Shown: positions 986-21,781 of the stretch, one piece after another | How positions within the stretch are numbered: the stretch's first letter is position 1 | How the letters are laid out: every line of letters begins with the position of its first letter | Source of the DNA: a virus | Virus record (IMG/VR): IMGVR_UViG_3300033146_005658 | Span: 1 to 26,290 of that record | Reading direction: 5' to 3' (one strand) | Length of the DNA stretch: 26,290 bases | Position numbers and translations under genes: made by a program | Notes under the pieces: generated by a model | What the model was told of the DNA's origin: nothing | What the model saw: the letters and a program-made list of their open reading frames with translations, nothing else | The model's database searches: none

Positions 986-2530
986 CTAAAATGAAAACCA
1001 TTCTGAATCTATTGATATGTCTGTTGTATCTATCATAGATGGCATTTCATTTAAATTATTTTGTTTATTATTTAAAGTTTGATTTTCAAATAAAGGAGTT
1101 TCTGATTGTTGATTATTATTAACTTCATAATATTCATAACCTCCCATTTCAGCTTCTGTTAACAAATACTTATCACCAGTTAATTGTAAAATAACAGCTC
1201 CTTCATCAGAACCTCTTGATTTTTTAAATGATATTATAAAAGTATCTTTGTCTCTATGTATTAATCCTATAACATCACTGTTATCAATTTTTTCACTTGA
1301 TTCTTTTATATCACCAAGATTAGGATCTTTATTATAAGCATCTTTTAATAATTGACTTGCTGTTATTACTGGTATTTGATATTTAACTGCTAATGTTTTT
1401 AATCCTAATGTTATTGCTCCTAATTGGTGTCTTAATGCATCATGATCTGGGGGTAATTTCATTATATCTAAATAATCTAAAAATATTGCATAAGGTTTCT
1501 TACCAGTTTTAATATTTAATTGTTCTATATAAGCAAATAAATCACCAGTACCAAATGCTCTTGGTGGAAAATAAGCTAAGTGTGAATTTGATAAATTATT
1601 ATGTAATGAATTTTTAATTATCTCACTTGATTCTTTATTTTTTGCAGTTATAATTCCTTTAGTAATATGAGTAGGATTATCATTAAGTATACATAATAAT
1701 CTTAAACCATTTTCCATAATTAGATTTTCAAGCGTAATAAATATCACATACTTATTATCTATATTTTTATTATTTAAATCATTTACCATATTCTTATATA
1801 AATTTAATAATAAAATTGATTTACCAACACCTGGCCTTCCTGCAAACATATATAATCTTGTTTTTTCAAATCCTCCATCAAGTTTTTTATCCATAGCTTT
1901 CCAACCTGATGATATTAAATTTTTTGGATTATAAAATTCTTTTAATTGATTACAAAATATATCTAATGAGTTAGTATCAGAAAAATCAATATAATTAGAT
2001 TTTTTTAAATTTTCATCTAAAGAAGTTTTAGCAACTAATTCTAAATAAAATTTTTCTACTACTGAAGTACATGTTTTCATTATACTATCAATACTAGAAA
2101 ATTCTTTATTATCTAATTTATTAAAAAAATCTTTAATTCCTTCTAATTTACTTTGCATTATATAATATTGATTTTCTACTGATAATAATTTTATTATAGA
2201 ATCTATTTCTTCTTGCTCTAATTCTAAATTTTTAATTTTATAAATATCATTTTTATATGAAGCATATTTAGATGTTAATAAATATCTTGGTAATATTTCA
2301 TCTACAGTTCGACCTTTACTTAAATGTAAACTAATTTCTTTTAATAAAAATAATTTATCTGATATAGATTCTTGTAAAGCTGAAGATGAAAATAATGGAT
2401 CACTTTTTATATTTTTTAATATTAGTTGACTTAATTCTAGAGATTCTTTTGCAATAATAACTTTATTGTATTTTGGTATTTTTTTATTTAATAATAGTTT
2501 TAAATAGTTTTCATATATTTCTAATATCAC
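986..2530 (-). CDS. dnaB: DnaB/T4 gp41-type replicative DNA helicase
   Basis: This 514-aa RecA-fold helicase should unwind the phage fork as a hexamer with the polymerase. The C-terminal ATPase half shows Walker A GRPGVGKS at 231-238, Walker B AIFLDYLD ending at 355, the sensor segment VITASQL at 388-394, and a basic FKKSRGS segment in the position of the DnaB arginine finger. The N-terminal 200 residues are helical and divergent. The start is GTG, preceded by AGAGGAG at good spacing; no better ATG fits. It follows dpdA by 22 nt and probably shares its transcript, which ends at the 893-942 terminator. The protein ends in an acidic-aromatic tail (DSEWFSF) that resembles clamp-binding tails. 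The family call is firm; whether it is closer to gp41 or DnaB is not settled. Confidence 0.93.
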   Translation of the reverse strand: MILEIYENYLKLLLNKKIPKYNKVIIAKESLELSQLILKNIKSDPLFSSSALQESISDKLFLLKEISLHLSKGRTVDEILPRYLLTSKYASYKNDIYKIKNLELEQEEIDSIIKLLSVENQYYIMQSKLEGIKDFFNKLDNKEFSSIDSIMKTCTSVVEKFYLELVAKTSLDENLKKSNYIDFSDTNSLDIFCNQLKEFYNPKNLISSGWKAMDKKLDGGFEKTRLYMFAGRPGVGKSILLLNLYKNMVNDLNNKNIDNKYVIFITLENLIMENGLRLLCILNDNPTHITKGIITAKNKESSEIIKNSLHNNLSNSHLAYFPPRAFGTGDLFAYIEQLNIKTGKKPYAIFLDYLDIMKLPPDHDALRHQLGAITLGLKTLAVKYQIPVITASQLLKDAYNKDPNLGDIKESSEKIDNSDVIGLIHRDKDTFIISFKKSRGSDEGAVILQLTGDKYLLTEAEMGGYEYYEVNNNQQSETPLFENQTLNNKQNNLNEMPSMIDTTDISIDSEWFSF

Positions 2531-2552
2531 TTTATTAACTCCTCTTTAGTAT

Positions 2553-3980
2553 TTACAAAAAATCAAAACCATCTACTTGATTATTTCCTTTTATCATTTC
2601 TTCTGATGATAAATAAGTATTTACTACATGATCAATATAATCAATATCTAAATCTTTTAATACTTGCATAGATTTTTTTAATTTATATTGAGTTCTTAAT
2701 TTTCTACTAATTTTCATTCTATTTAAAAGTATCATTTTATTATATATTAAATCAAAGAATTCTTCTTCTCTTCCATTCTCAAATAAATAAAATATTTCAT
2801 TTAGATACTTATCACTCATTTCTTCAACTAATTTATATTGATTAGCAATATTTAACATTCCAATTAATGCAATCTCTTTATTTAAAACACTTTGATTTTT
2901 ATCAGTATTAAATTGATAAAATTTTCTATTATTTAAAATAGAATTATATTTACCATTTTTATCCATATTACTTAACATAGCATTATATCTAGAAAATAAA
3001 TATTGTTCTATTGTTTTATCAATATTTAATTTTGGTAATGCTATTTTATTTAAATCATTTTCTTTTACTGATAATGTTTGAATTATAAATGTATCTGGTA
3101 TTAATATATCACATATTCGTGCTTGTTGAAATTGTTTAAATGGTGCTGATGAATCATATGTTATTTCTACTTTGATTTTATGATAATATTCAATTATTTT
3201 TGAAATTACTTTATAAAAAAATACATCTTTATATGAAGCTCCTCCAAGTATATGTATTTTAATATTGTCTTGTTTTTGTTCCAATGCATTTTTAATTATT
3301 TGACATAATGGAATTATATATAAATGAATTGGAGTAGTTTTAGCGCTACCTGAAAAAGCAACTATACCACCCATTGAATAATAATTTGAAAATTGTTTTT
3401 CATATGTTTTACTAATTTCTTTCCATATTGAATATATAGTTGGAGTTCTAAAATGATAAATAAAAATTAATTTTTTCTTTATCTCATCTGGTAAATTTGC
3501 TAACATTGTAAAACTAGTATGATTAATATTTAAAAGATCTTTTTTATTAGCCATACTACCAGTTATAAATAATAGATCTAATGTAAAAAAATAACTAAAA
3601 AACTGGTTATAGTTGCTTATAAAGTTAGCATATTCTCTTATGAATAAATTTAATTCTTGCTTACCAAGATAACCCATAGTAGCTTGAAAACCACCTGAAT
3701 CCATAAATAATTGTAATTTATTTTTTTGTAAGTAATCAAAACTTTTAATCATAAAAGGTTTACCAAATACAGTTTTTATTAATGAATTATTATAATTATT
3801 TGGAGTTTTTAATTTATTATAATTAGTTTTAGTAGACTTAGATAATCCTGTACCATATGTAATTAAAAATTTATTACTTATATTAGTTATATAACCTTCG
3901 AAAAAATCACTATCAATTTCACCTCCAGTATTATATATAAGACTTAATAAAGTTTCTGATGCTGCATAAATATATGACAT
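2553..3980 (-). CDS. dpdA: DpdA-like DNA-guanine transglycosylase (7-deazaguanine insertion)
   Basis: This 475-aa protein has the TIM-barrel signature of the tRNA-guanine transglycosylase superfamily: MDSGGFQ at 93-99 (substrate-binding Asp), LD at 134-135, MGG at 203-205, HILGGAS at 243-249, and TYDSSA at 274-279, where D276 is the expected nucleophile. The C-terminal CxCxxC zinc site of tRNA enzymes is absent, as in phage DpdA proteins, which exchange guanine in DNA for a 7-deazaguanine such as preQ0. The nearby queE supports DNA modification. I chose ATG at 3980 (ribosome site AAAGGA) over an upstream TTG at 4010, which would place that ribosome site inside the gene. The last seven residues, VDGFDFL, are identical to those of the DNA polymerase here. 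The exact modified base cannot be told from this window. Confidence 0.82.
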   Translation of the reverse strand: MSYIYAASETLLSLIYNTGGEIDSDFFEGYITNISNKFLITYGTGLSKSTKTNYNKLKTPNNYNNSLIKTVFGKPFMIKSFDYLQKNKLQLFMDSGGFQATMGYLGKQELNLFIREYANFISNYNQFFSYFFTLDLLFITGSMANKKDLLNINHTSFTMLANLPDEIKKKLIFIYHFRTPTIYSIWKEISKTYEKQFSNYYSMGGIVAFSGSAKTTPIHLYIIPLCQIIKNALEQKQDNIKIHILGGASYKDVFFYKVISKIIEYYHKIKVEITYDSSAPFKQFQQARICDILIPDTFIIQTLSVKENDLNKIALPKLNIDKTIEQYLFSRYNAMLSNMDKNGKYNSILNNRKFYQFNTDKNQSVLNKEIALIGMLNIANQYKLVEEMSDKYLNEIFYLFENGREEEFFDLIYNKMILLNRMKISRKLRTQYKLKKSMQVLKDLDIDYIDHVVNTYLSSEEMIKGNNQVDGFDFL

Positions 3981-4017
3981 AATGCTAATATCCTTTCTTT
4001 TTATTTTCAAAATTGTG

Positions 4018-4035
4018 GAACAAAATATATTAAAT
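4018..4035 (+). promoter_or_regulatory. Candidate late promoter motif (class B) for the 4066 gene
   Basis: GTGGAACAAAATATATTAAAT lies 48 nt before the ATG at 4066, in the divergent gap with dpdA. The GAACAAAA core at the same distance is found before four other structural or morphogenetic transcription units in this window. Confidence 0.5.
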
Positions 4036-4065
4036 ATATTTTATACAAAATTAAGGAGAATTTTT

Positions 4066-4794
4066 ATGAGTAAAATTGCTATGAAATTAAATGATATAAA
4101 TTATAAAATAAACAGATTAATAATATTAACAGAAGATAATGATAATACATTAACAGCTGAAAAAATTAAAAAACAATTTGGTGTAGAATCTGAAGATCTT
4201 AAAACAGTAGGTGATGCATTAAATAGTTTATATAATTTCATAAAAAATCCTACAACTAATTCTGTAAAAGTTAAAGTTAATAAAAAACCCAGTGAAGATA
4301 TTAATAATGAATCTGGTATATTATATAAGGTGCTTAGTTATATAAATAGAATAGTAGCACCAATAATGAATAACAAATATGTTAAAATCTTATTAGGTTA
4401 TATTGATTCTATTAAAGGTTTCTATAAAAAAGCAAAAGAAAAATATACAGAAATGAAACCTTTAATATCATCTATTATTTCTATGTTAGTATTTTTTATA
4501 TCTGCATTACTTATTATATTTTATGCAGTTACTAAAAATAATATGAAACGAGAATTAGAGCAATCTTTATTAAATAAAATTTATAATAATAAAAGCAATA
4601 GTATATTACCAGATGCATTACAAAAAATATATGATTTTGTAGTTAGCTTATTAGTTGGTATTAAAAATTTTATTAAAGATATATTAGATTTTTTAGTTAA
4701 AGAACCAATCTTATCAGCGATACTAATTGGTTGTATTGGATTTACTATTTATTTTTATAATAGATCAGTTGAATTATATTATAAAAAAGCATAA
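4066..4794 (+). CDS. Leader-bearing membrane protein, probable packaged phage protein
   Basis: This is the only rightward gene in the left half of the window, between dpdA and queE. Its 242-aa product starts with a leader (KLNDINYKINRLIILTE, ending at residue 23) related to those of the four-gene operon at 9045-13338. Its C-terminal half has the same order: TM1 at about 132-154, amphipathic helix at about 185-209, TM2 at about 214-231. The middle (30-130) is helical and charged. I chose ATG 4066 because AAGGAGAA precedes it; an upstream in-frame start would cover the promoter motif. Its 3' end overlaps queE by 16 nt in convergent orientation with no terminator seen. No known domain was recognised. 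Packaging in the head and cleavage after E23 are inferences; the residue after E is Asp, not Ala. Confidence 0.85.
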   Translation: MSKIAMKLNDINYKINRLIILTEDNDNTLTAEKIKKQFGVESEDLKTVGDALNSLYNFIKNPTTNSVKVKVNKKPSEDINNESGILYKVLSYINRIVAPIMNNKYVKILLGYIDSIKGFYKKAKEKYTEMKPLISSIISMLVFFISALLIIFYAVTKNNMKRELEQSLLNKIYNNKSNSILPDALQKIYDFVVSLLVGIKNFIKDILDFLVKEPILSAILIGCIGFTIYFYNRSVELYYKKA

Positions 4795-5504
4795 TCTATA
4801 TGTGAACGGCCACTTACATTACAATTATATTCTAATGATGTATTCATAATTAAAGACATATTATTAGATATATCACTTTTATTAGCACCAATCGGCATAA
4901 GATATAAATTATAAAACCAAGAATTTTCTGGAGTTACATTGTTTTCAGTTTCTAATTTTTTTATTACATTTAAATATTGTTTTACTAATTCTTGATTTTC
5001 ATATGACATTGGTATCTTAATAGATATGTCTTTTTTATATTTGTTAACTAATTTTGATTGACATAAAAATGTAACATTATCAATTACTTCTTGTTCATTA
5101 AAAAATTTTGGACTATAACTAATATAAACTTTAGTTTTATTAGTATTTACTTTTTTAGTATACCAAGATATAAAATCTTCTAATTTATATCCATTAGTTT
5201 CTATACTTAATAAATTAAGTTGATTTTTATAATACTCATATATTTTATCAATATCATTTAAGTATATAGTAGGTTCTCCACCAGTAAAACAAATCTTATA
5301 TAATGTATTTTTTAATAAAGTAGATAAATCTTTTTCTTCAAAATTAAAATTTATACTATTATTCATTTTAAATTTAGTATCACACCAAGGACATAAATCA
5401 TTAGCAAATGGTCTTGCACAAAATTTAAATCTTACGAAAGTTATTAATTGCCCTGTTTGTAATCCTTCACCTTGCCAACTTGAAAATATTTCTATTGCTT
5501 TCAT
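4779..5504 (-). CDS. queE: QueE, 7-carboxy-7-deazaguanine synthase (radical SAM)
   Basis: This 241-aa enzyme of the QueE family converts 6-carboxy-tetrahydropterin to 7-carboxy-7-deazaguanine, the step before QueC makes preQ0. It shows the N-terminal SSWQGEG, the iron-sulfur cysteines C29, C38 and C41 followed by DT, the SAM-binding GGEP at 75-78, and ETNG at 102-105. The C-terminal LMPIG and GRSHIDY segments fit the family. The cysteine spacing is CX8CX2C, not the usual radical-SAM CX3CX2C; longer loops occur in some QueE proteins, such as the Burkholderia multivorans enzyme. GGAG lies 10 nt before the ATG. It likely has its own promoter (5533-5556). With dpdA it points to a 7-deazaguanine in the phage DNA; QueD, QueC and FolE are not in this window and may come from the host or elsewhere in the genome. 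Confidence 0.93.
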   Translation of the reverse strand: MKAIEIFSSWQGEGLQTGQLITFVRFKFCARPFANDLCPWCDTKFKMNNSINFNFEEKDLSTLLKNTLYKICFTGGEPTIYLNDIDKIYEYYKNQLNLLSIETNGYKLEDFISWYTKKVNTNKTKVYISYSPKFFNEQEVIDNVTFLCQSKLVNKYKKDISIKIPMSYENQELVKQYLNVIKKLETENNVTPENSWFYNLYLMPIGANKSDISNNMSLIMNTSLEYNCNVSGRSHIDYAFL

Positions 5505-5532
5505 TTTATAATTTCTCCTTTTTAATTTTTTG

Positions 5533-5556
5533 TTATTTTTTCTAAATTAAGTTGAA
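5533..5556 (-). promoter_or_regulatory. Class A promoter motif before queE
   Basis: This 24-nt segment matches the one before polB (8939-8962) at 22 of 24 positions; the shared core on the minus strand is TTAATTTAGAAAAAATAA. It lies 28 nt before the queE ATG, against 32 nt for polB. It is probably an early or middle phage promoter. Confidence 0.5.
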
Positions 5557-5561
5557 TTATT

Positions 5562-8500
5562 CTATAAGAAATCAAATCCATCAACTTCAACATTTACTTG
5601 AAAATGATCATCTAATATTGGTTCTAATATATTAGTATATCGTTCATTCCATAAAAAATCTAAAGTTTTCTTTTTATCAATAATAATCCATTCAGGTAAT
5701 ATATCTACACTTTCTGGTACTGCTATTGAATTACATCTAAATTCTTTAAAATAATTATCACCAGATAATTTAAATTGTATTATAAGATCTTGCACATCTT
5801 TTGGTAATTTTGTTTCATCAATATTATCAATATAAAATAAATAACCTTTTGATGCTGGTTTAAATATTTGTTTATTATATATATGATTCCATAATAACAT
5901 AGCATCTATATTTTGAGGTCTATTTTTATATTCACATAATTCTTTTGTAAAGCTAATAGGTTTACCAATTATTTTATTTCTTTCATTAATAAAATTAATA
6001 AATTCATTTTCTATTGTATAGATATCATCAAAAGTATCACTAACATTAAATTTCTTAACAGTAAGAATTCTGGTTAATAAATAATTTAATTTATCTCTTA
6101 CTATTTGAGGATAATCAGATCTTCTTATTTCAATTCCTCTATAAATAAATTCATCTTTTAATTTTCCACCTTCTTTTACAACATGTAATGCATATCGTTT
6201 TCTTTTATTTTTATAAAATAATCCTTTTTGTGCAATCCATTCTTCTTTGAATTTCATATACTTATGAATAGAATCTGGTTTTATATTAAAATAACTGTAT
6301 ATATTATTTACAATATTTTTAATATAAGTATTAGTCAAATCAATCATATATTCAATATCAGACATTTGTTTTTCATCACTATCATCAATATTAAAAAAAT
6401 CTGGATAAGTAATCGCTGTACCATCTGTATCAGCATATATACAATATCTTAAATTCATATCATCTTGTTTTTTAATATCAATGGTTTTAAATTGATCTGT
6501 TATAAATTGTGGATGATTTGATAATTTTATGATTTGATTAGTTAATTCTTTCTTTTTATTTTCATCAGTATCATACCAATATTTAGTATTTTCTAATAAT
6601 AGTGTATTAGTTGTTTGCATGATTACTTTAATAAAAAGTCTACCAGACATAGTGATACTATTTCCTAATGTATTAGAAAAGAAAAGAAAACTTTTAAACC
6701 CAAAAACACCAAAGAAACTATTCATTGATATTTTAACTGCCCATTGTTTATTATATAATGATTGAATTAAGTTTCCTAATTTATCATACATATTAGATTT
6801 AACATTGACTCTAATATCATTTAATCTAGTTAATATTTTATAATATATAGATTCTTCTTCATCATGACTACAAAATATTCCTCCACTTGGTGTAAGTATA
6901 TAATTATTCTTTTGTATTAATTTTAATAAATCTTTTATTTGTATTTTATTTCTTCTTTTAAATAATATTTCATTATTAGAAATAATATTAATATCTAATT
7001 CTCTATCTATATATTCTATAATTTCTGATTCAACAAATTGATTAGTCATTATTCTTATAGCATCTTCAGATGATATTGTTATTCTTAAACTATTTGGACC
7101 AATATTAAAATTTCTAATTAAAGATGGATACATTGATGCTGCATCATAATCAGTTATCCAATCTACTAAACCACCAACTGATGATTGAGTATATCCTCCC
7201 AATAATTCTTTAAGAAAAGTTGATTCAAATAAACTACTACTAATTCTACTTCTTAATACTATATTATTTTCTTTAGCGAATGATAATAAAAACCCCATAA
7301 TAATACCTATTGAAGAATAAGTATCTTTCCAAGGACATTGTGCATATTTCATCATATTATATGTAAAATTATGTAATTGAGATTTTGAATCTATTTCAAC
7401 CATACATTCAGTATCTCTAACATTATAACGAATCCATTCTTCAATAGGAGCATCTGCAGCTGGCATTTTTAATTTAGCATATTCTTCTCCTAATTCTAAA
7501 TTAGATATAAATGATAATGACCAACTTTCTTTAGCATTCTGTTGTGCATTTTTATAGAGTTGCATTAAATCAGTAATAATAATACCAGTCCAAACATTAG
7601 TAATATAATTATATTTTTCTTCTACTATAACTTCTTTTTTATCATTATCAGTCATTAAATCATATACAGTATTACATTGTAAATTATGTATATTAGTTTT
7701 ATAATATTTTAATTTTTTACATCTATTTACTATATATGGAAAATCAAATCTATCTCCATTCCAAGCAGTTATAATATCTGGGTTTAAATCTAATATTAAT
7801 TTTATAAAATCTTGCATCATTAAAGATTCATTATTATTATAAAATTTACTAATTAATTTATAAGTACCTGATTTAGCTTTATATTCAGATTCTATTGTTA
7901 CTTCTTTATTATATAAACAAAAACTATAATATGTATCTTTATAAAAAGCAGATAGAAAATTTATTTCTTTACCTGCTACCATTTTATTTAAAGAACCTTC
8001 ATCTTCTACATTTAATTCTATATCATAATAAAATACTTTTGGATTATAATCAATTGAATCATTTATAGAATTATAATAATAATCAGCAGTTGCTTTTAAA
8101 ATTAAAGAAATATCATTTTCATATATATTACTATTATTTAAATTATTTACACCTTTTAAAGAACCAGATTTACAAACACAATTTTTTACATTAAGTATTG
8201 GAGTACTAACTTTACAATTATCAAGTTCATAATAATATTTAAATTTATTTGCAGATACTGATACTATATATTTTTTATCATTTGTTAAACTTCTAAATAT
8301 AAATTTAACTTCTTTATATTTATATAATTGTACATCTAATAATACATATTTATTTTTATCATAATATCGTTTAGGTAAGCCTGTAAAGGAATATATTTCA
8401 TGTTTGGATAATATATTACCATTTGATTGAAACTTTCTTATATGATTAGATTTTACCTTTTTTAGTTCTTTAGTTTTCTTTTTTAATTCTTTTAATTCAT

Positions 8501-8906
8501 TTTCATTTAATAAAGTATTTTTAGTAAATTCATCAGAATTATTAATTAACCATTGCATAAATAATTTAGCTTCTGGTTCTCCTAATTGGCCTTGAATCTT
8601 TTCTGGTAATTTAAATTTTTTTGATTTGCCTTTGCCTTTTGTAAATATTGGATATTGAATGTTTTTAAATTTTTTAAAAAACATTCTTAAATAATTTAAT
8701 AAACTTATACTATCTAATTGATATATAACAGATATATCATTACATGTATCATTTAACATAGAACCTAATAAAGGATTACTATAACAATATGATTTTAATA
8801 AATAAGTATGAGGTAATGAAGATAATTCTTTAATTTCAATATCTGTTAATTTTTTCTCATTAAAAATTTTAGAATGAAATAATTTAATCTTATCAAAAAA
8901 CTGCAT
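5562..8906 (-). CDS. Family B DNA polymerase with proofreading exonuclease
   Basis: This 1114-aa replicative polymerase resembles T4 gp43. Exonuclease motifs: DIE at 295-297, NGDRFD at 383-388, YNVRDTE at 494-500. Polymerase motifs: A, DYDAASMYPS at 586-595; B, KISMNSFFG at 725-733; C, YADTDGT at 824-830 (catalytic D826 and D828; the usual Ser after the second Asp is Gly). All catalytic acids are present. It is about 200 residues longer than T4 polymerase (898 aa), mostly in a Lys-rich N-terminal part before exonuclease motif I. The C-terminus VDGFDFL resembles the RB69/T4 clamp-binding tail (FDMFDF) and is identical to the end of DpdA. It starts at ATG 8906 with AAAGGA upstream, is preceded by a class A promoter motif, and its stop is 57 nt before the queE start codon. 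Confidence 0.97.
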   Translation of the reverse strand: MQFFDKIKLFHSKIFNEKKLTDIEIKELSSLPHTYLLKSYCYSNPLLGSMLNDTCNDISVIYQLDSISLLNYLRMFFKKFKNIQYPIFTKGKGKSKKFKLPEKIQGQLGEPEAKLFMQWLINNSDEFTKNTLLNENELKELKKKTKELKKVKSNHIRKFQSNGNILSKHEIYSFTGLPKRYYDKNKYVLLDVQLYKYKEVKFIFRSLTNDKKYIVSVSANKFKYYYELDNCKVSTPILNVKNCVCKSGSLKGVNNLNNSNIYENDISLILKATADYYYNSINDSIDYNPKVFYYDIELNVEDEGSLNKMVAGKEINFLSAFYKDTYYSFCLYNKEVTIESEYKAKSGTYKLISKFYNNNESLMMQDFIKLILDLNPDIITAWNGDRFDFPYIVNRCKKLKYYKTNIHNLQCNTVYDLMTDNDKKEVIVEEKYNYITNVWTGIIITDLMQLYKNAQQNAKESWSLSFISNLELGEEYAKLKMPAADAPIEEWIRYNVRDTECMVEIDSKSQLHNFTYNMMKYAQCPWKDTYSSIGIIMGFLLSFAKENNIVLRSRISSSLFESTFLKELLGGYTQSSVGGLVDWITDYDAASMYPSLIRNFNIGPNSLRITISSEDAIRIMTNQFVESEIIEYIDRELDINIISNNEILFKRRNKIQIKDLLKLIQKNNYILTPSGGIFCSHDEEESIYYKILTRLNDIRVNVKSNMYDKLGNLIQSLYNKQWAVKISMNSFFGVFGFKSFLFFSNTLGNSITMSGRLFIKVIMQTTNTLLLENTKYWYDTDENKKKELTNQIIKLSNHPQFITDQFKTIDIKKQDDMNLRYCIYADTDGTAITYPDFFNIDDSDEKQMSDIEYMIDLTNTYIKNIVNNIYSYFNIKPDSIHKYMKFKEEWIAQKGLFYKNKRKRYALHVVKEGGKLKDEFIYRGIEIRRSDYPQIVRDKLNYLLTRILTVKKFNVSDTFDDIYTIENEFINFINERNKIIGKPISFTKELCEYKNRPQNIDAMLLWNHIYNKQIFKPASKGYLFYIDNIDETKLPKDVQDLIIQFKLSGDNYFKEFRCNSIAVPESVDILPEWIIIDKKKTLDFLWNERYTNILEPILDDHFQVNVEVDGFDFL

Positions 8907-8938
8907 AATTTAAAATTCCTTTTATTATAAATTTGTTA

Positions 8939-8962
8939 TTATTTTTTCTTAATTAACTTGAA
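8939..8962 (-). promoter_or_regulatory. Class A promoter motif before the DNA polymerase gene
   Basis: The minus strand carries TTAATTAAGAAAAAATAA preceded by TTCAAG, matching the queE upstream element at 22 of 24 positions. It lies directly beyond the 8978-9017 terminator and 32 nt before the polymerase ATG, the expected place for a fresh promoter. Confidence 0.5.
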
Positions 8963-8977
8963 ATTTTATACCGTTAA

Positions 8978-9017
8978 AAAATAGCCTATTTATATTCAAA
9001 ACTAAATAGGCTATTTT
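8978..9017 (-). terminator. Rho-independent terminator of the leader-protein operon
   Basis: Perfect 15-bp arms AAAATAGCCTATTTA (8978-8992) and TAAATAGGCTATTTT (9003-9017) enclose a 10-nt loop. Read leftward, the stem runs into six T. It ends the operon 13338-9045 and separates it from the polymerase promoter. Flanking A/T tracts make it potentially bidirectional. Confidence 0.85.
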
Positions 9018-9044: not shown

Positions 9045-10022
9045 TTATTTTTCTTTTAATATATCACTATTTTTTAATAAATTTTCTAATTCAAATGAAT
9101 TAAAAGAATAATGTAAGCAATAAATACCAATAACTAAAAATAAGATACTAACACCAGTATCAAATTTATGTTTTATTATAGTACTGATTGCAGATTTAAA
9201 TACTAAAGCTATAAAAGCAACTAACCATTGTATACCAGAAAGTCCTGATAATTTTGAATGAACATCTTTGATTAATTGTGGTATATATATTAGTAAAAAT
9301 ATCATAGCAGATAAAAATAAAAATATTAATCCTATGACTAAAAATTCTTGTGAATAAATATCTAATATTTCATTTTTAGCAAGTCCTATTTGATATTCTT
9401 TACTATATTTATCACCTGCTTCAAATCTGGAATCTTCCAATTTTCTATTCATATCTGTAAGTTTATTTACTAATTTATTAACATTATTCCATCTATTTTT
9501 TAACATATTTTGTTGCTTTTTTAATTTTTTAATTTCAGCATCTTCTTTTCCATGTTTTATAACTAATAAATCATCTATCTTTTTTTCAATTTCCCATTTA
9601 GAAGAATTTAATGCTTTTTTCATACTTTTTAAATTTACAATTGAATGAGTGAGCTTTAACTCTCTTAATAACCGACCTGTTGTTTCCCATCTCCAAGGAA
9701 ATCTTTCATTACTAAAAACATGATATATAGATTTTATATCACCATTAGAATCAGCAAGTTTAGTTATAAACTGTTTTACTAAATTTTGTTGTTCAGAATC
9801 TTTCGGTAATAATTTTTTACTTATTTTTTTAATATCAATTACATTACTCCAAATCTTTAACCATTTCACTTCAAAATTTTTAATATCTTCTTGATAAGTA
9901 CTCGGTGTTTCTACTTCATAATCTTGAAAAAAATCTGGATCTTCATCTTTAGCTTCTAATAAAATAATATCTAATTGTTCTTTGATATTTTTTAGTTTCT
10001 TTCTAAATATTTCTTTATTCAT
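9045..10022 (-). CDS. Leader-bearing membrane protein, last gene of the four-gene operon
   Basis: The 325-aa product begins with the shared leader (NIKEQLDIILLEA, residues 12-24), with a T4-like prohead-protease site L-L-E|A after residue 23. A hydrophilic, largely helical middle follows, with a likely coiled coil at about 145-200. The C-terminal third is TM1 at about 227-246, an amphipathic or hydrophobic helix at about 264-283, and TM2 at about 290-306. ATG 10022 has GGAG upstream and follows the previous gene by 13 nt. Operon membership and leader say it works with its three upstream neighbours. No enzyme motif was recognised. The inference is a protein packaged in the capsid and later inserted in the host membrane; it could instead be a superinfection-exclusion or lysis-associated membrane protein. 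Confidence 0.87.
   Translation of the reverse strand: MNKEIFRKKLKNIKEQLDIILLEAKDEDPDFFQDYEVETPSTYQEDIKNFEVKWLKIWSNVIDIKKISKKLLPKDSEQQNLVKQFITKLADSNGDIKSIYHVFSNERFPWRWETTGRLLRELKLTHSIVNLKSMKKALNSSKWEIEKKIDDLLVIKHGKEDAEIKKLKKQQNMLKNRWNNVNKLVNKLTDMNRKLEDSRFEAGDKYSKEYQIGLAKNEILDIYSQEFLVIGLIFLFLSAMIFLLIYIPQLIKDVHSKLSGLSGIQWLVAFIALVFKSAISTIIKHKFDTGVSILFLVIGIYCLHYSFNSFELENLLKNSDILKEK
9952..9980 (-). repeat. Leader-coding DNA repeat, copy 1
   Basis: This 29-nt stretch coding EQLDIILLEA is identical to 11507-11535 and differs at two positions from 12394-12422. Near-identity at the DNA level, against unrelated sequence after the leader, suggests the leader was duplicated or swapped as a module. Confidence 0.85.
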
Positions 10023-10035
10023 TTTAGAAATCTCC

Positions 10036-11577
10036 TTATTTATATATTAAACTATTTATATATTTTTTATCTATTAAATCATATTGTAAAAATAAACCTA
10101 CTGTTACACATAAAAAAGATAAAAAACTAAAACTTAAAAAAATAAACTTACTTACACTATTATAATTAGATACAAATTCAGCAATAGCAGTAAATGGTGT
10201 AAATATAATAGTCATAAAATTATTCAAAGCAGAGCTAATATTACCAGAAGTAATATCTGAAACAAATTTGGTAACATTAGATTTAAGATCAGACCATACT
10301 TGAGTTAATACTTCTGTAAATTTATTTGGATCAGAAAATATCATATATCCAAAAGAACCTACTAAAGCTAATAAAGCCATAACACCTGATAAAATATACC
10401 AATTTGTTTCATCAGTAATTTTCTTTAATAGTTTTTTAATCATATCTTTCATCTTATTAACTATATTATTAAATCTATCTAATCTTGTATTATTACCTTT
10501 AATACGATTATCTAACTCATCACTTGTTTTTTTCATAACACTAACAAATTTAGTTTGTAAATTTTTAATGTCATTTGATACTTTTTTAATTTGCTTACTA
10601 TTATTTTTAGATTTATCATTGACTAATTTTTTAAGAGTATTAATTTTAGTATTTAATTGTTTTTTAATAGTTCTACTTTCATTAACTATTACATGATTAA
10701 TTTTAATAGTTGACGATTTAGCATTATCAATAATATTTTTATTAATTTTATATCCATTAGAAACTATTGCTGCCGAAATTATTGCATGATTATTATCAAT
10801 TTCTCTATTTAAATTATCAATTTTATTAGAAACATTTCTATTTAAATTATCAATAGATGCATCTATAATATCCATTTGTTTACTTAATCTATCAGCTGCA
10901 TTATTAACAAGTTTCTTATTAGCTTCATCACTTTTAACTATTCTAGTAAATATTTCTTTTTTACTATTTACTACAGTATTAGTTAATGTAATTCCTTGAT
11001 TATTAATAGTTTGAACTATGATAGATGTTCCATCAGATAATTTCTTTTTTATATCATTAACTACATTAACATCACCAGATATAAATTTTATATTATTTTG
11101 TAAATTTTTAATTTTACTATCTAATTTTTTTATTGCTACTTGTTGTTTTTTTATTGCTCTTTTTTTATCTGCTATTCTTATTTTTTGAATACCAACTTGT
11201 TTAAGAACTTTTGATGAATCTTCTGGTGCACTTTTTTGAATTTCAGTGATAAAAGTAGAACTAGTATCTTTTACTACATCTAATGCTTCATTAGCAGCTT
11301 TTTTAACTTTATCAGCTTTATCTCCAACATATTTAATACCTTGATCTATTTTTTTCTTTGTTATATCAACAGCTTTATCTGCATTATCAGCTGCCTTAAA
11401 ACTAGTTTTTTTAACTTTATTTCCTACACTTTCAGCCTTATTAAATAACCAACCAACTTTTTGTTTAAACCAACCAGATTGCTTAGCAGAAGAAATATTA
11501 GTATCTGCTTCTAATAAAATAATATCTAATTGTTCTTTTATGTCATTAAGTTTTTTCTTAAGTAAATGTTTTTGCAT
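10036..11577 (-). CDS. Leader-bearing, coiled-coil-rich membrane protein
   Basis: This is the longest of the leader family, at 513 aa. The leader (HLLKKKLNDIKEQLDIILLEA, with E23|A24) is followed by Lys/Ala-rich amphipathic repeats at about 50-115 and then long helical segments to about 385, with many Asn and Lys, consistent with coiled coils. The C-terminus has TM1 at about 393-414, a hydrophobic segment at about 452-470 and TM2 at about 477-497, the same order as its relatives. GGAG precedes ATG 11577. It sits third in the operon, 23 nt after the 11601 gene and 13 nt before the 9045 gene. No catalytic motif was seen. A long rod ending in a membrane hairpin would suit a periplasm-spanning or ejected structural protein; this is inference. 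Confidence 0.87.
   Translation of the reverse strand: MQKHLLKKKLNDIKEQLDIILLEADTNISSAKQSGWFKQKVGWLFNKAESVGNKVKKTSFKAADNADKAVDITKKKIDQGIKYVGDKADKVKKAANEALDVVKDTSSTFITEIQKSAPEDSSKVLKQVGIQKIRIADKKRAIKKQQVAIKKLDSKIKNLQNNIKFISGDVNVVNDIKKKLSDGTSIIVQTINNQGITLTNTVVNSKKEIFTRIVKSDEANKKLVNNAADRLSKQMDIIDASIDNLNRNVSNKIDNLNREIDNNHAIISAAIVSNGYKINKNIIDNAKSSTIKINHVIVNESRTIKKQLNTKINTLKKLVNDKSKNNSKQIKKVSNDIKNLQTKFVSVMKKTSDELDNRIKGNNTRLDRFNNIVNKMKDMIKKLLKKITDETNWYILSGVMALLALVGSFGYMIFSDPNKFTEVLTQVWSDLKSNVTKFVSDITSGNISSALNNFMTIIFTPFTAIAEFVSNYNSVSKFIFLSFSFLSFLCVTVGLFLQYDLIDKKYINSLIYK
11507..11535 (-). repeat. Leader-coding DNA repeat, copy 2
   Basis: Identical over 29 nt to 9952-9980; codes EQLDIILLEA at the N-terminus of the 10036-11577 product. 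Confidence 0.85.
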
Positions 11578-11600
11578 TTATAAAATCTCCTTATAAATTT

Positions 11601-12464
11601 TTATTCTATATAATCCCATATAGATGTTTTAGAATTAAATTGATTAACTAATTTTCTATTGATATCTTCTTCTACATTAAATTTTTCATTATATAATATA
11701 TTAAATGTTCTAGTTAATATAAACATACCACCAACTACTAATGCAATAGCAATTATAAAAAGTGGATCGGTTATTTTATCATAAATAGTTCCACCAATGA
11801 TTTTAGCAATTAATTTAATAGCACCAATAATTTTCTCAGTAAAAGTTCCACTTTTTAATTTTTTAAATTCATCTTGATATTTAGCTGCTTGATTATAAAA
11901 AGAAATTGAAACAGATATTACAATAAACATATATCCTAAAAAAATTAATAATAGCATTGTTTGAGAAATCAATGTCATTTTATCTTCTATTTCTTTAGTA
12001 GATTCAGCTATTTTTTTATTTCTATTTTGATAAAATTTCTTTCTTGCTTCTACTAATTTTTTATGTATTGATTCAAGATTTTTTGTAGTTATATATTGCT
12101 GCTCTACACTCTTAGAAGTTTTAGGTGATTTTTTCATTTGTTTTTCACAAAGATCAATCATACCATCTATAGTAAATATTCTACTAAATATTGGAGTAAT
12201 ATGTTTTTTAGCTTTTGATTTTAATTCTTGATCAACTAAAGCACCACTAAATTTACCAGTTGCTAAAAAATTTACAATTTTAGTTTTAAGCATATTAAAA
12301 TCATCTGCTATATAATTTTTCATTTGATCCCAAGATTTTAAAGTAATAATTTGATCTGGTTTAATTTCACTTGGTTTAACTTCACCTTCTTTAGCTTCCA
12401 TTAAAATAATATCTAATTGTTCCTTAATATTGTTAAGTTTCTTTTTAAGTAAATGTTTTTTCAT
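11601..12464 (-). CDS. Leader-bearing membrane protein
   Basis: The 287-aa product starts MKKHLLKKKLNNIKEQLDII, continues LMEA (site after E23), and has a charged helical middle to about 165. Its C-terminus shows TM1 at about 169-190, an Ile/Lys amphipathic helix at about 210-226 and TM2 at about 234-252, then a short charged tail. GGAG lies upstream of ATG 12464. It is second in the operon, 31 nt after the 12496 gene. Outside the leader and the TM plan it shares little obvious sequence with its neighbours, so the family looks modular: constant leader, variable middle, hydrophobic hairpin end. No known domain was recognised. Confidence 0.87.
   Translation of the reverse strand: MKKHLLKKKLNNIKEQLDIILMEAKEGEVKPSEIKPDQIITLKSWDQMKNYIADDFNMLKTKIVNFLATGKFSGALVDQELKSKAKKHITPIFSRIFTIDGMIDLCEKQMKKSPKTSKSVEQQYITTKNLESIHKKLVEARKKFYQNRNKKIAESTKEIEDKMTLISQTMLLLIFLGYMFIVISVSISFYNQAAKYQDEFKKLKSGTFTEKIIGAIKLIAKIIGGTIYDKITDPLFIIAIALVVGGMFILTRTFNILYNEKFNVEEDINRKLVNQFNSKTSIWDYIE
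12394..12422 (-). repeat. Leader-coding DNA repeat, copy 3
   Basis: 29 nt matching copies 1 and 2 at 27 positions; codes EQLDIILMEA of the 11601-12464 product. Confidence 0.8.
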
Positions 12465-12495
12465 TTTTATAACTTCTCCTTTTATTTTTATAAAT

Positions 12496-13338
12496 TTATA
12501 CTTTATAATTAATTATTTCTTGTGGTAAATATGCTGCAATAAACATAACTATACCAATACCAAATAATGCTAATGCAAATCCACCAATAGGATCTTGAGA
12601 TAAAGTTTGTAAGAAAGAAGTAATTGGTGAAAATAATAAATAAACAATATTACCAAATAGTTTACCAAGTTCAGCAAAAAATGTTTTTATAGCATTCATA
12701 GGATTACCACCAAGAAGATCTTTTAAAACTCTAATAAAAGAAGTTATAGATTTCTGCAATGAATCTATTACTCCTTGAAAAGCCATTCCAAGTACCTTAG
12801 CAAAATTAGTTATAACTTTAGTTAAAGTGCCTCTTAATAACATAACTATTAATGAGATAACAGCTAAAAATAATCCAGAATATTTAAAAAAATCATCTTG
12901 TGGATTTTTCATAATACTTTTTACTTTATCAAATATACCATTTAGTTTATTAATTTTTTTCTTTACTGCTTCTTTATCAGTTGGCTTTTCTAAATTTTTA
13001 ATATCGCTACTCAGATAACCAGTAACCTTAATAAATAATGGTTCTATTTTTTTTAAAATATATTCATATAATTTATCTATTTTATTATAAAATTTAGACA
13101 ATAATTTTTTAGCTTGATTTATTAATTCGTCTTTATTTTTAAAAAACCAATCAAAATTTTTAGATTTGCTCATTTCAATTATACCATCTGAAATTTTATT
13201 ATAAACAGATGATATCATAGAATGTAATATAGAAGTATCTACATCTTTTTTATCTTCTGCTTTAGTTTCTACTTCTAATAAAATAGAATTAATTTTTTCT
13301 TTAATATTAATAACTTTGTTTTTTAGTATTAAATTCAA
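12496..13338 (-). CDS. Leader-bearing membrane protein, first gene of the operon
   Basis: The 280-aa product starts with a divergent leader (KVINIKEKINSILLEV, E22|V23). The start codon is TTG at 13338, with AAAGGAG 10 nt upstream and no in-frame ATG that keeps the leader. The middle is helical and charged. TM1 lies at about 152-168, a long amphipathic stretch covers about 172-240, and TM2 lies at about 251-271. A class B promoter motif lies 38 nt upstream, in the short gap after the 13391 gene, so the four-gene operon appears to start here and to end at the 8978-9017 terminator. The function is unknown; a capsid-packaged, membrane-inserting role is inferred from the leader and hydrophobic hairpin. 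Confidence 0.87.
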   Translation of the reverse strand: MNLILKNKVINIKEKINSILLEVETKAEDKKDVDTSILHSMISSVYNKISDGIIEMSKSKNFDWFFKNKDELINQAKKLLSKFYNKIDKLYEYILKKIEPLFIKVTGYLSSDIKNLEKPTDKEAVKKKINKLNGIFDKVKSIMKNPQDDFFKYSGLFLAVISLIVMLLRGTLTKVITNFAKVLGMAFQGVIDSLQKSITSFIRVLKDLLGGNPMNAIKTFFAELGKLFGNIVYLLFSPITSFLQTLSQDPIGGFALALFGIGIVMFIAAYLPQEIINYKV

Positions 13339-13390: not shown

Positions 13391-14653
13391 CTATTGATAA
13401 ATAAAGATATCCCAATAAGTATCTTTATCTACATCAATTTTAACAATAATATTTTCACCAGCTAAATCTAATTCATATGTATTACCATATATTAATTCAC
13501 CAATTTTTCTATGACCTACTATAATTTTATCAGGATCATCAACTACTTCTCCATCTAAATTAATAGTATGATTATCAACTGATAATACATCATTTGGAAA
13601 TTGATATGCTAATGCTTTTTTAAATTCAAAAGTTGAATTATCACATATTCTTAAAGCTTGAGCTGGTATATGTAAATATGGTTGAGTTTGCTTTGGAATA
13701 TATTTTGGTTGTTCAGGTCCCTTAACATTCTCAGGCCATATATCATTATTATTTTCAGGTTCATAAGTTTCTGTATTATCAGGATCATCTGGGGGAATTT
13801 CTATTTGATAATCTTTAGAACTAGTAGCAATATCAGTATCAAATGTTATTTTAATATTTTCCATTTTTTCTGCATTTCTTATTACAATATAAGTTGGTAA
13901 ATCAACATCATATTCCATAGTTAATTGTAATTTATAATTAGCTATATCATCACCACCATAAACAACACTAGCATCTGATAATGATGTTAGCCATATTTGG
14001 GGACTCATTTTTAATGGTAAAAAATATTTATCTTGATTTAATACTTTTATTAATTCATTTCTTAAACCAGTATTAGACCAATCATATTGAAATCCTTGAT
14101 ATGCTGTTTCAATAATGTCTGCAGGTATTATGATATTAGTATCTATATGATCAATCCTAACTCTTCTATTATTACCACCATGAAACCACATTTGTAACAT
14201 TACTTTATGATCGATATATTCATAAACACTTTCTAACCAAATTATCATTTCTAAGTTACCTTTAAATTTTGTCCTTATAATCGAATAAGCAAAATACTCA
14301 TCTTCATATTCATAAGGTCTTATAAAAGCATTAACTCCTGGTACACCAATTTGTCTAAATCTCCAAAGATGTAAAAAATTAGGATCTGGTAATATATCTC
14401 CTAATGGATTAAATGATATTGCTGGTAATGGTATAGCATCTACTAATTCACCTGAACCACTTGTATTAGCATCACATGCATATTGCTTTAATTCCTCAAT
14501 AGCTTTATCATGTGTTGACATAGTTTTATATTTAAAATCAGTAAAATAATCTTGTATAAACCAATTAAAAATACCTTGATAAACCGTCATTAAGCCATTG
14601 TTTATATAGAATAATCTTTCATCATTAATATGTGGTTTTACTATATCTACCAT
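13391..14653 (-). CDS. Probable virion structural protein (neck/tail region), unknown family
   Basis: The 420-aa product has no membrane segment and is rich in Asp, Tyr, Trp and Pro, as beta-rich virion proteins often are. It has an N-terminal domain to about 270 with segments such as MLQMWFHGGNNRRVRIDHID, a Pro/Asp/Glu/Asn-rich linker at about 287-325, and a C-terminal beta-type domain ending DIFIYQ. I do not recognise the family. ATG 14653 overlaps the stop of the small upstream ORF (TAAAATG); the best ribosome site, GGGAG, is about 19 nt away, so translation is probably coupled to that ORF. It is likely transcribed from the class B motif at 14788-14810, which argues for late expression with the structural genes. 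Confidence 0.85.
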   Translation of the reverse strand: MVDIVKPHINDERLFYINNGLMTVYQGIFNWFIQDYFTDFKYKTMSTHDKAIEELKQYACDANTSGSGELVDAIPLPAISFNPLGDILPDPNFLHLWRFRQIGVPGVNAFIRPYEYEDEYFAYSIIRTKFKGNLEMIIWLESVYEYIDHKVMLQMWFHGGNNRRVRIDHIDTNIIIPADIIETAYQGFQYDWSNTGLRNELIKVLNQDKYFLPLKMSPQIWLTSLSDASVVYGGDDIANYKLQLTMEYDVDLPTYIVIRNAEKMENIKITFDTDIATSSKDYQIEIPPDDPDNTETYEPENNNDIWPENVKGPEQPKYIPKQTQPYLHIPAQALRICDNSTFEFKKALAYQFPNDVLSVDNHTINLDGEVVDDPDKIIVGHRKIGELIYGNTYELDLAGENIIVKIDVDKDTYWDIFIYQ

Positions 14654-19008: not shown

Positions 19009-20742
19009 ATGGATCAAATTAATGATATTATAAATCAAATAAAACAAGTAAGTCCAAAACTAAAAGATATACAATTAAGTAGTAAATCTAAAACTGAATT
19101 AGAAGAATGGTATAGATGTAAACAAGATTTTTTTTATTTTTTAAATAATCATGTTAAATTAAATTTACCAGGTGCTAATATTAGTTTCAAAGAACATAAG
19201 GGGCAAGAGTTTTTAATGAATGCATTTTTATATTATCATTATATAGTAACATTAAAAACTAGACAGATTGGAATTACTACTGTAGTTAGAGCATTGGTTG
19301 CTTGGTGTACTATCTTTTTTGATAATATTGGAGTTGGTATAATATCTAAGAAAGGACCTGATGCTACAGCTTTCGTAAGAAATACTATACATACTATAGA
19401 GCATGATTTAGATTCTTTTTTAATTCCACAATTTAATAAAAAATCAGAACAACAATTCTTTTTAAAAAATGGAAGTTATGCTATTGCTGAAGCAGTATCT
19501 CCAGTACAACCAGAAAATACTTTAAGATCTAATCCAATAACTGTATTAATTATTGATGAAGCAGCTTTTGTGCATAAAATTGATGAAGCAATATCTGGTC
19601 TCATGCCTACTATTGTTACTGCTCATAAATATGCAAGACTTAATAATGTTCCTTTTGGAGTTATTGTAATGAGTACACCAAATAAAACTAGTGGTACTGG
19701 TAAATGGTTTTTTGATATGTATAAAACTGCAGTTAATAATACTACTGTTGCTGATGAAGATGATGATACTTTATATAAAGCTATTAAATTACATTGGAAA
19801 GATATTCCTTTATATAGAGATGATCCTAATTGGTATGAATCTCAAAAGAAAATGCTTAATTTTAATAGAAACCAAATAGCACAAGAATTAGATTGTACAT
19901 TCATACCATCAGATCGAGAATCTATAATTGATGCTGATATTGCTATTGAATTATCTGAAAAGAATTATAAACCAATAAATATTATAAAAACCAAAGGTGG
20001 AGAGATTTGGCAATTTAAAGAACTATCAAAAGATAAAAGATATATCGTTGGTATTGATACTGCTACTGCTTCTGGTACAAATGCTTTTTCAGCTATTGAA
20101 GTTTTTGATTTTGAAAATAATGAGCAAGTGCTTGAATATATGGGTAAATTATCTACTTTAGAATTTCCTTCTATAGTAATGCAAATACTTGATATGATTG
20201 GACTTAATTGTTTTATAGTACCTGAAAGAAATACTATTGGTGAACCTATCGTAGATACTATTATTAAAAATGTTATTTATAAACAAAGATTATTTAAAAC
20301 TATTAAGAAAAATAAAAATACAGGTTTTATAGAATCAGTTACTTATGGATTAAATACTTCAGGCTCTACTAAACCTTTATTAGTAGAAGCAGTAACTACA
20401 TTTATTGAAGAAAATTATAATAAAATTTATAGTGAAAGATTAATATTACAAATACTGGATGCTAAATTAAAAAATAATAAACTTAAAGGATTACCAAATG
20501 ATTTATTAATGGCTACTTCATTTTGTACTTATGCTAAAAAATATACTAATGTTAAATTTATTAATTTTGATGATAATAATTGGATGGATGATTTATTAAA
20601 AAAAGATAAACAATTATCAAAAGATGAATTAATGAATTATTTATATAATGATAAATTACCTTATAATAAAGAACTTGAAAAAAATACTAATAAGCTAAGA
20701 GGTAAGAATCCTGACCTTTTAGATTATTTATTTGACTTATGA
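19009..20742 (+). CDS. terL: Terminase large subunit (T4 gp17-type packaging ATPase/nuclease)
   Basis: This 577-aa motor cuts concatemers and pumps DNA into the prohead. The ATPase domain has an adenine-binding/Walker A segment LKTRQIGITT at 82-91, Walker B VLIIDEAAF at 179-187 and coupling motif VMSTPN at 220-225. The nuclease domain has the three acids of the RNase H fold: D350 in VGIDTA, E406 in VPERN and D498 in PNDLL. The length matches T4 gp17 (about 610 aa). AAAGGA lies 8 nt before ATG 19009. The C-terminus DLLDYLFDL is acidic-aromatic, like clamp-binding tails. T4 gp17 is known to cooperate with the late-transcription and clamp machinery, so such a tail would make sense, but this is inference. 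No small terminase was recognised in the window. Confidence 0.96.
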   Translation: MDQINDIINQIKQVSPKLKDIQLSSKSKTELEEWYRCKQDFFYFLNNHVKLNLPGANISFKEHKGQEFLMNAFLYYHYIVTLKTRQIGITTVVRALVAWCTIFFDNIGVGIISKKGPDATAFVRNTIHTIEHDLDSFLIPQFNKKSEQQFFLKNGSYAIAEAVSPVQPENTLRSNPITVLIIDEAAFVHKIDEAISGLMPTIVTAHKYARLNNVPFGVIVMSTPNKTSGTGKWFFDMYKTAVNNTTVADEDDDTLYKAIKLHWKDIPLYRDDPNWYESQKKMLNFNRNQIAQELDCTFIPSDRESIIDADIAIELSEKNYKPINIIKTKGGEIWQFKELSKDKRYIVGIDTATASGTNAFSAIEVFDFENNEQVLEYMGKLSTLEFPSIVMQILDMIGLNCFIVPERNTIGEPIVDTIIKNVIYKQRLFKTIKKNKNTGFIESVTYGLNTSGSTKPLLVEAVTTFIEENYNKIYSERLILQILDAKLKNNKLKGLPNDLLMATSFCTYAKKYTNVKFINFDDNNWMDDLLKKDKQLSKDELMNYLYNDKLPYNKELEKNTNKLRGKNPDLLDYLFDL

Positions 20743-20803: not shown

Positions 20804-21781
20804 ATGAATAAAATAGATAAACAGAATCTTGAAGAAAGCTATTATATTGGTTTATTTGAAAAATTGCAAGCTGTTAAATTAGATGGTCAAAAAATTGGAT
20901 ATACCAGTAAAGAAATTAGAAAAGAATTTATTAAAGATATTATAGCTAATAATTTTTTTGCTAGTCAAAGTACTAAAAATAAAATAATTGAACTAGTAAA
21001 AAATAAAAGAATTATACCAATTTATAGTTCTAAACATAATATAAATATATTTTTTAATGTTGGTACATATCAAAAAAGCATTCAAGGTTTTTGTTATCCC
21101 AGTAAAAATAAAAGTTTTATAATAGTTTTTACTAATCATATTTCTAGTTCTATAACTCAAAAAATTAAACCATTTGATGTTTGGAAAATTTGCAGTCATG
21201 AATTAATGCATTATTTGGAAGTAGAATCTTCTAGTCAATATTATGGTAATAGTTTAATTAGAAAAGATATTAAAAAATGGTATTATGAATTTTTTAAAAA
21301 GTATTTCTATGAAGCTGATTTAAATGATAAAACTATAAATTTAGCAATCAATGCAATAATAAAAAATAATATAATAAATAATAAAATTGGAAACTTTAAA
21401 AAATTAATTTATAATGTTAAAAATATATTAATGAAATATTTCTGGAAAGATGATGATTCTAATGCAACCAAATATGATAAGATATTTGAAAAAATTGAAT
21501 TACTAATTAATATTGTAAGTTTTGTTACTGGTACAGTTTATGGTTTTCCACAAATAAATTCGAGAGAAGATTTTTTTCATTATTTTACATGTTGTGAAAA
21601 AGCCTATAGATCAATTATAAGTACTTCTAATTCAAAAACAATTAATAGTTTCTATGGACAAGAATTTATTATACTTAGTGAAATAAGTGCAATAGCATAT
21701 TCTAATGATGTTAAACTTGGAAATAAAATTTTAACTACTATTACATTTCCAAGTAATAAACTTAAAAGGATTAATAAATAA
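20804..21781 (+). CDS. Putative zinc metalloprotease-like phage protein (HELMH), first of three paralogues
   Basis: The 325-aa product has HELMH at 132-136 inside a hydrophobic helix (VWKICSHELMHYLE), the HExxH zinc-binding and catalytic signature of gluzincin-type proteases, and a later SEISAIAYS helix in which E293 could be the third ligand. A strand pair GFCYPSKNKSFIIVF precedes the helix, as usual for the edge strand. A helical region IKKWYYEFFKKYF follows. No signal peptide or TM was seen. Its stop overlaps the start of the next gene by one base (TAATG). It lies in the packaging/structural region, so a role in head or tail maturation, or as a virion enzyme acting on the host, is possible. 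No substrate can be named. Confidence 0.85.
   Translation: MNKIDKQNLEESYYIGLFEKLQAVKLDGQKIGYTSKEIRKEFIKDIIANNFFASQSTKNKIIELVKNKRIIPIYSSKHNINIFFNVGTYQKSIQGFCYPSKNKSFIIVFTNHISSSITQKIKPFDVWKICSHELMHYLEVESSSQYYGNSLIRKDIKKWYYEFFKKYFYEADLNDKTINLAINAIIKNNIINNKIGNFKKLIYNVKNILMKYFWKDDDSNATKYDKIFEKIELLINIVSFVTGTVYGFPQINSREDFFHYFTCCEKAYRSIISTSNSKTINSFYGQEFIILSEISAIAYSNDVKLGNKILTTITFPSNKLKRINK

Follow-up and report, generated by a model that had tools for sequence, protein, structure and literature searches.

Introduction

The head proteins gp14–16 of the phage T7 form a conduit through the host envelope after ejection. The head proteins gp7, gp16 and gp20 of the phage P22 are described in the same role (PMC8402733). 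In the phage T4, capsid-targeting sequences (CTS) comprise 10–20 N-terminal residues ending in [L/I]xE↓A, where the arrow marks cleavage by a prohead protease with the site L/I-X-E (PMC9026906; gp68 is listed there as uncleaved). The T4 internal proteins IPI, IPII and IPIII are otherwise divergent, small, soluble proteins that have in common a short leader of this kind (10–19 residues). In the phage P1, the first 30 residues of DarB suffice for direction to the capsid (PMC9024508). The phage SPN3US, of the phiKZ-like group, contains a head protein, gp47, with a predicted transmembrane (TM) helix in its mature part and an N-terminal propeptide of 111 residues that is cut by the prohead protease; its ejection was inferred by the authors, and relatives have diverged genes at the gp47 position (PMC5694885).

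Here, we analyze four adjacent genes (A–D) in a 26,290-base IMG/VR record (21.8% GC; a fragment, hereafter the window). A preliminary description of this DNA had read their products as membrane proteins directed into the prohead by a common leader, and as a phage system of a sort not known to have been described before. Within an incomplete coverage of the literature, we met no account of hairpin proteins that form a tagged set, although the already described SPN3US gp47 narrows that claim.

The source phage and the four-gene module

The source of the window is a divergent phage of the T4 superfamily, encoding a T4-like terminase, a family B DNA polymerase (PolB), a DnaB-like helicase, QueE, and a queuine tRNA-ribosyltransferase-like protein, along with a tape-measure candidate (Table 1). 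No capsid, portal, protease or scaffold genes were identified within this 26-kb fragment. Profile searches of genome contigs with terminase and PolB alignments returned no relatives, and scans for further relatives of PolB and the conserved gene g13391 returned only the contig L006 (IMGVR_UViG_3300035698_025392) and one remote contig. Between the terminase and the tape-measure-like gene, we noted two related proteins (20804–21781 and 22909–24003, plus strand) with a HELMH metallopeptidase-like motif, which are conserved in the relatives L004, L006 and L007 and gave no match in Pfam or PHROG.

The four genes are present where the preliminary description placed them: A–D are co-directional open reading frames on the minus strand (9045–13338), separated by gaps of 13 to 31 bases and each preceded by an AGGAG-type ribosome-binding site. 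The module joins the 3′ end of g13391, and a stable hairpin followed by a U run, between gene A and PolB, is the probable end of the operon. No function is known for any of the neighbors g13391, g15151 and g15692. The T4 late-promoter motif (TATAAATA) has two exact copies upstream of gene A, yet it occurs 16 times across the window, with no visible enrichment. Given that the GC content of the module (21.9%) equals that of the rest of the window (21.7%), its composition does not mark it as recently acquired from elsewhere.

Table 1. Coordinates of the module, its leaders and neighboring features in the window, and of the shared-leader genes in the immuto phage. The arrow marks the putative protease site.
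Feature	Coordinates	Strand	Details
Gene E (candidate fifth member)	4066..4794	+	242 aa; TM 130–159 and 206–224; leader MSKIAMKLNDINYKINRLIILTEDN
PolB	5562–8906	-	Family B polymerase
Hairpin, then U run	8978..9017	-	3′ of gene A, before PolB; −18.7 kcal/mol, z = −3.9, no shuffle as stable
Gene A	9045..10022	-	325 aa; leader, helical body, three hydrophobic segments near the C-terminus (219–238, 257–276, 289–307)
Leader of A	9951..10022	-	Codons 1–24; MNKEIFRKKLKNIKEQLDIILLE↓A
Gene B	10036..11577	-	513 aa; leader, long helical/coiled-coil-like body, TM 394–415 and 474–499
Leader of B	11506..11577	-	Codons 1–24; MQKHLLKKKLNDIKEQLDIILLE↓A
Gene C	11601..12464	-	287 aa; leader, helical body, TM 163–191 and 230–258, helix 208–232 between
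Leader of C	12393..12464	-	Codons 1–24; MKKHLLKKKLNNIKEQLDIILME↓A
Gene D	12496..13338	-	280 aa, TTG start; leader, helical body, TM 149–177 and 249–276; weak tape-measure similarity
Leader of D	13270..13338	-	Codons 1–23; MNLILKNKVINIKEKINSILLE↓V
g13391	13391..14653	-	Conserved gene directly upstream of D
T4-like terminase	19009–20742	+	
Tape-measure candidate	24004–26289	+	
immuto shared-leader gene	1803–2318		
immuto shared-leader gene	103806–104354		Product with two TM segments
immuto shared-leader gene	117631–118632		Directly upstream of terminase (119017)
immuto shared-leader gene	118632–118931		Directly upstream of terminase (119017)

An accessory position

The closest relative found was L006, with a terminase 57% identical and a PolB 44% identical to those of the window. 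Its gene order is that of the window, with g15692, g15151, g14810, g13391 and PolB on one strand, and g17680, the terminase and the next genes on the other. The junction between g13391 and PolB in L006 consists of 95 bases, in which we noted by eye a terminator-like GC hairpin and T run, and holds no hairpin gene; A–D occupy exactly this junction in the window. Judged by this gene order, A–D form an accessory module that closes the operon at its 3′ end and that either one lineage acquired or the other lost, with the proviso that the L006 contig covers only 17.6 kb and that A–D could lie elsewhere in that phage.

Several features of these relatives were noted in passing. The PolB of L006 (131–4159, minus strand) has, in its N-terminal part, a uracil-DNA glycosylase domain (PF03167, residues 237–380, E = 4.3e-14) that is missing from the window PolB. 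Both polymerases end in the peptide VDGFDFL (5562–5585 in the window), as does the queuine tRNA-ribosyltransferase/DpdA-like protein of the window (2553–2576, minus strand like PolB); this may be a sliding-clamp-binding tail, tethering a DNA base-modifying enzyme to the replisome. The contig IMGVR_UViG_3300027917_000053 (L022) encodes an array of nine paralogous proteins (2033–9017 and 11984–12436), five with one predicted hydrophobic segment, which share the motif FLxxEATDYQILHLI near the N-terminus and a cysteine-bearing C-terminal motif. This array, for which no known family was found, is flanked by tail-tube-like and gp25/gp6-like baseplate genes and has two relatives in L028.

A shared leader on divergent bodies

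The products of A–D all open with a related leader of 22–23 residues (IKEQLDIILLEA in A and B, IKEQLDIILMEA in C, and IKEKINSILLEV in D), after which the bodies diverge, in agreement with the preliminary description. BLASTP matches among A, B and C cover the first 24–26 residues (C–B, E = 1.8e-8; C–A, 3.6e-6; A–B, 3.8e-5), and a leave-one-out leader profile scored 64.7, 66.3, 70 and 47.7 for A, B, C and D, respectively; the best of the 404 remaining N-termini, drawn from the window and nine related contigs, reached 24.5. This sharing of a leader among divergent bodies is far beyond chance. Read from the sequence, the putative leader ends are LLE↓A (A and B), LME↓A (C) and LLE↓V (D); being common by descent, the motif counts as one observation.

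The claim that three copies are nearly identical in DNA holds for a 22-nt leader core, with no difference between A and B and 95% identity in C, and fails for the whole leader; a 67-nt family has four copies with 75–78% identity to B. Extended into the upstream region, the repeat is a 130-nt unit with three copies at 66–72%. Of the 24 leader codons compared between B and C, 14 are identical, six differ synonymously and four non-synonymously; the differences in the core are mostly synonymous, so the conservation lies in the peptide. The leader peptide must be constrained, or else the copies are so recent that it has yet to decay; the more diverged D, which still keeps IKE and ILLE, argues for constraint.

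A possible fifth member, gene E, encodes a protein with the layout of A–D, and its leader carries KLNDI and ILTE, with marginal similarity to the others (shuffle fraction of 0.03; tied fifth of about 408 N-termini).

Membrane segments, structure models and database searches

The preliminary description had also given all four C-termini the arrangement of a TM segment, an amphipathic helix and a second TM segment. C-terminal TM segments were indeed predicted in all four, two each in B, C and D, while the arrangement is only approximate for A, which has three hydrophobic segments. Charges flanking the segments leave the topology unfixed, and a cytosolic N-terminus is possible. Comparison of the hairpins between proteins gave no convincing homology (best shuffle fraction of 0.018 among ten comparisons). 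The bodies of A and B displayed some similarity (z = 4.1, 0/500 shuffles), which may reflect coiled-coil pattern and composition.

The AlphaFold models of C and D are almost entirely helical. For C, the single-sequence model comprises a high-confidence helical hairpin (residues 160–260, pLDDT of about 90) and a low-confidence N-terminal helix (residues 2–25), while the model of D is of low confidence. Foldseek with the model of C returned nothing significant; the best PDB matches were the B subunits of alpha-pore toxins, which, at E of about 0.2, we do not count as evidence.

No convincing homologue was found by tblastn with A, C and D in 50,697 phage records, and searches of IMG/VR with C and with a degenerate leader pattern gave nothing beyond a chance match in the unrelated contig L005. 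Searches of A–D against PHROG, Pfam and NCBIfam gave no credible match to known internal proteins, profile and tblastn searches indicated no membership in T7/P22-type ejection protein families, and no holin, exclusion (Imm, Sp) or defense profile matched above the cut-off. The PADLOC matches of B to LmuB/ZorA and of D to LeoA were rejected as weak coiled-coil or hydrophobic matches. No full-length match to tape-measure proteins was seen for A–D; only D showed a partial, weak similarity (PHROG, E = 1e-5; best tblastn, E = 5e-3).

Comparison with phage head cargo

Applied to the whole T4 genome as a positive control, our leader-sharing search recovered ipII and ipIII (MKTYQEFIAE↓A), the other pairs being ordinary paralogues or chance. 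The motif [LI]xEA occurs within the first 32 residues of 9/263 T4 open reading frames, in five of the ten head-core or internal proteins (ipI, ipII, ipIII, gp68 and gp22) as against 4/253 others (Fisher p of about 3e-6), with the caveats that some of these very proteins went into defining the T4 consensus and that gp68 is listed as uncleaved. The leader ends of A–D fit the gp21-type site [L/I]xE, and like the T4 internal proteins they combine a short leader with unrelated bodies. They differ in that the leader is longer, shows no homology to the T4 leaders by search and precedes TM hairpins, and the T4 proteins having no TM segments counts against A–D being capsid cargo. Two apparent likenesses were set aside: the amphipathicity of the leader, which in A–D is not beyond that of shuffles, and the resemblance of the T4 gp22 start (MLKEQLIAEA) to KEQLDIILLEA in the window, which is probably coincidence.

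The same search of the Flavobacterium phage immuto, also of the T4 superfamily, revealed a MENFDLKKFLVENKLTxNS leader (MENFDLKKFLVENKL proteins) on four divergent proteins (Table 1); the Microcystis phage Mel-JY01 gave no comparable shared-leader set. As in the window, one leader precedes divergent bodies, and one of the proteins has two TM segments. The immuto set differs in its leader sequence, scattered genes and mostly non-membrane cargo, and we found no description of it as a system. The annotation of immuto includes portal, gp21-type prohead protease and gp23 genes. We also noted that an immuto gene between portal and protease opens with a similar start (MKKSQIVKAVQEVLEE), and that a small-gene cluster (102294–104354) bears two kinds of leader (MKKSxLxxxIxxEL and MENxFDLKKFLVENKL), with TM segments in two genes.

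The other systems share some traits with what is proposed for A–D. SPN3US gp47 resides in the head, is cut by the prohead protease, has a predicted TM helix and varies among relatives; it differs as a single protein with a far longer propeptide from another phage group. P1 DarB has an N-terminal capsid signal of the sort proposed for A–D and differs in being a very large antirestriction protein outside any shared-leader set of membrane hairpins. The T7 and P22 ejection proteins would be matched in function if A–D served as a head-delivered conduit; they belong to short-tailed phages, lack such a shared leader and have no detected sequence similarity to A–D.

The gp21-type protease (PF03420) was not found in the 26-kb window or in the seven closest contigs, all of them fragments, and is present in the more distant G008 and G009; the portal search gave no match anywhere, controls included. 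The CTS-like layout, the motif enrichment in T4 and the immuto parallel support, by analogy and in part, the earlier reading of the leader as a capsid-targeting sequence.

Possible roles of the module

The explanation we consider best, at about even chances of being correct, is that A–D belong to the virion of a T4-superfamily phage as accessory proteins, where a T4-type leader is placed on unusual membrane cargo that is packaged, cleaved and delivered to the host envelope. The leader would act as a capsid-targeting sequence that binds the prohead core or scaffold, so that the protein is enclosed, and the prohead protease of the phage would then cut after [L/I]xE at the leader ends given above. 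The mature helical proteins would exit with the DNA and insert their hairpins into the host envelope, where they might help DNA entry or have an early effect on the host or competing phages. We infer packaging, cleavage, delivery and membrane action by analogy with the systems above. The absence of A–D from the L006 junction was counted in favor of this explanation, as it is expected of host-interaction cargo. Counted against it were the neighboring genes of no known function, the late-promoter motif that does not stand out, the absence of homologues of A, C and D from the collections searched, and the chance that a hairpin protein inserts into the membrane of the producing cell instead of being packaged. 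A coordinated pore or conduit built from A–D would be a further step; that a contractile-tailed phage packs four or five hairpin proteins into its head with one cleavable tag, to form, once ejected, a hetero-oligomeric pore or exclusion complex in the envelope, much like the head-delivered conduits of short-tailed phages, seems to us doubtful.

A–D might instead act only in the infected cell, at the inner membrane, in superinfection exclusion, lysis timing or host takeover; the leader would then be a helix in the cytosol, bound by one partner shared among the four. T4 Imm, among other membrane proteins, acts in this manner according to annotation, and both the accessory nature of the module and the possible cytosolic N-terminus are in keeping with it. 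However, such a role does not predict the [LI]xEA end of the leader, no exclusion, holin or defense family matched above the cut-off, and at 280–513 aa, with long helical bodies, A–D are larger than typical Imm or holin proteins, leaving this role rather unlikely.

Alternatively, A–D may dock growing proheads to the inner membrane, the leader binding the head core and the hairpin staying in the membrane until protease cleavage of the leader brings release. Nucleation of T4 heads takes place at the inner membrane and the proheads of SPN3US protease mutants stay membrane-bound (PMC5694885, PMC10052503), and a leader with a cleavable site next to a TM anchor would fit. We nevertheless regard docking as improbable, as it has no need for four different anchors and the genes are missing at the L006 junction, though they may lie elsewhere in that phage beyond the 17.6 kb contig.

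More doubtful still is that A–D are accessory proteins of a tail or tape-measure-like kind, with a DNA channel formed by their hydrophobic segments: the weak similarity of D to tape-measure proteins and an array of TM proteins within the tail module of the relative G005 would suit it, but this phage has its tape-measure candidate elsewhere, A–C have no credible tape-measure similarity, and the scores are at the level of generic helical hydrophobic sequence. The least probable alternative, a very remote one, is that the leader has no targeting role and merely arose when gene starts were recently duplicated or recombined locally, for although the repeated DNA reaches the upstream region in three copies, the mostly synonymous core differences and the motifs retained in D speak against it.

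Implications

If A–D are leader-tagged head cargo, the capsid-targeting principle of the phage T4 would reach membrane proteins, and would do so as a tagged set. Shared N-terminal leaders would then provide a simple means of finding head-delivered cargo in uncultured phages. The leader scan recovered T4 internal proteins as well as the immuto set, and, given that immuto is cultured, its set is directly testable by proteomics.
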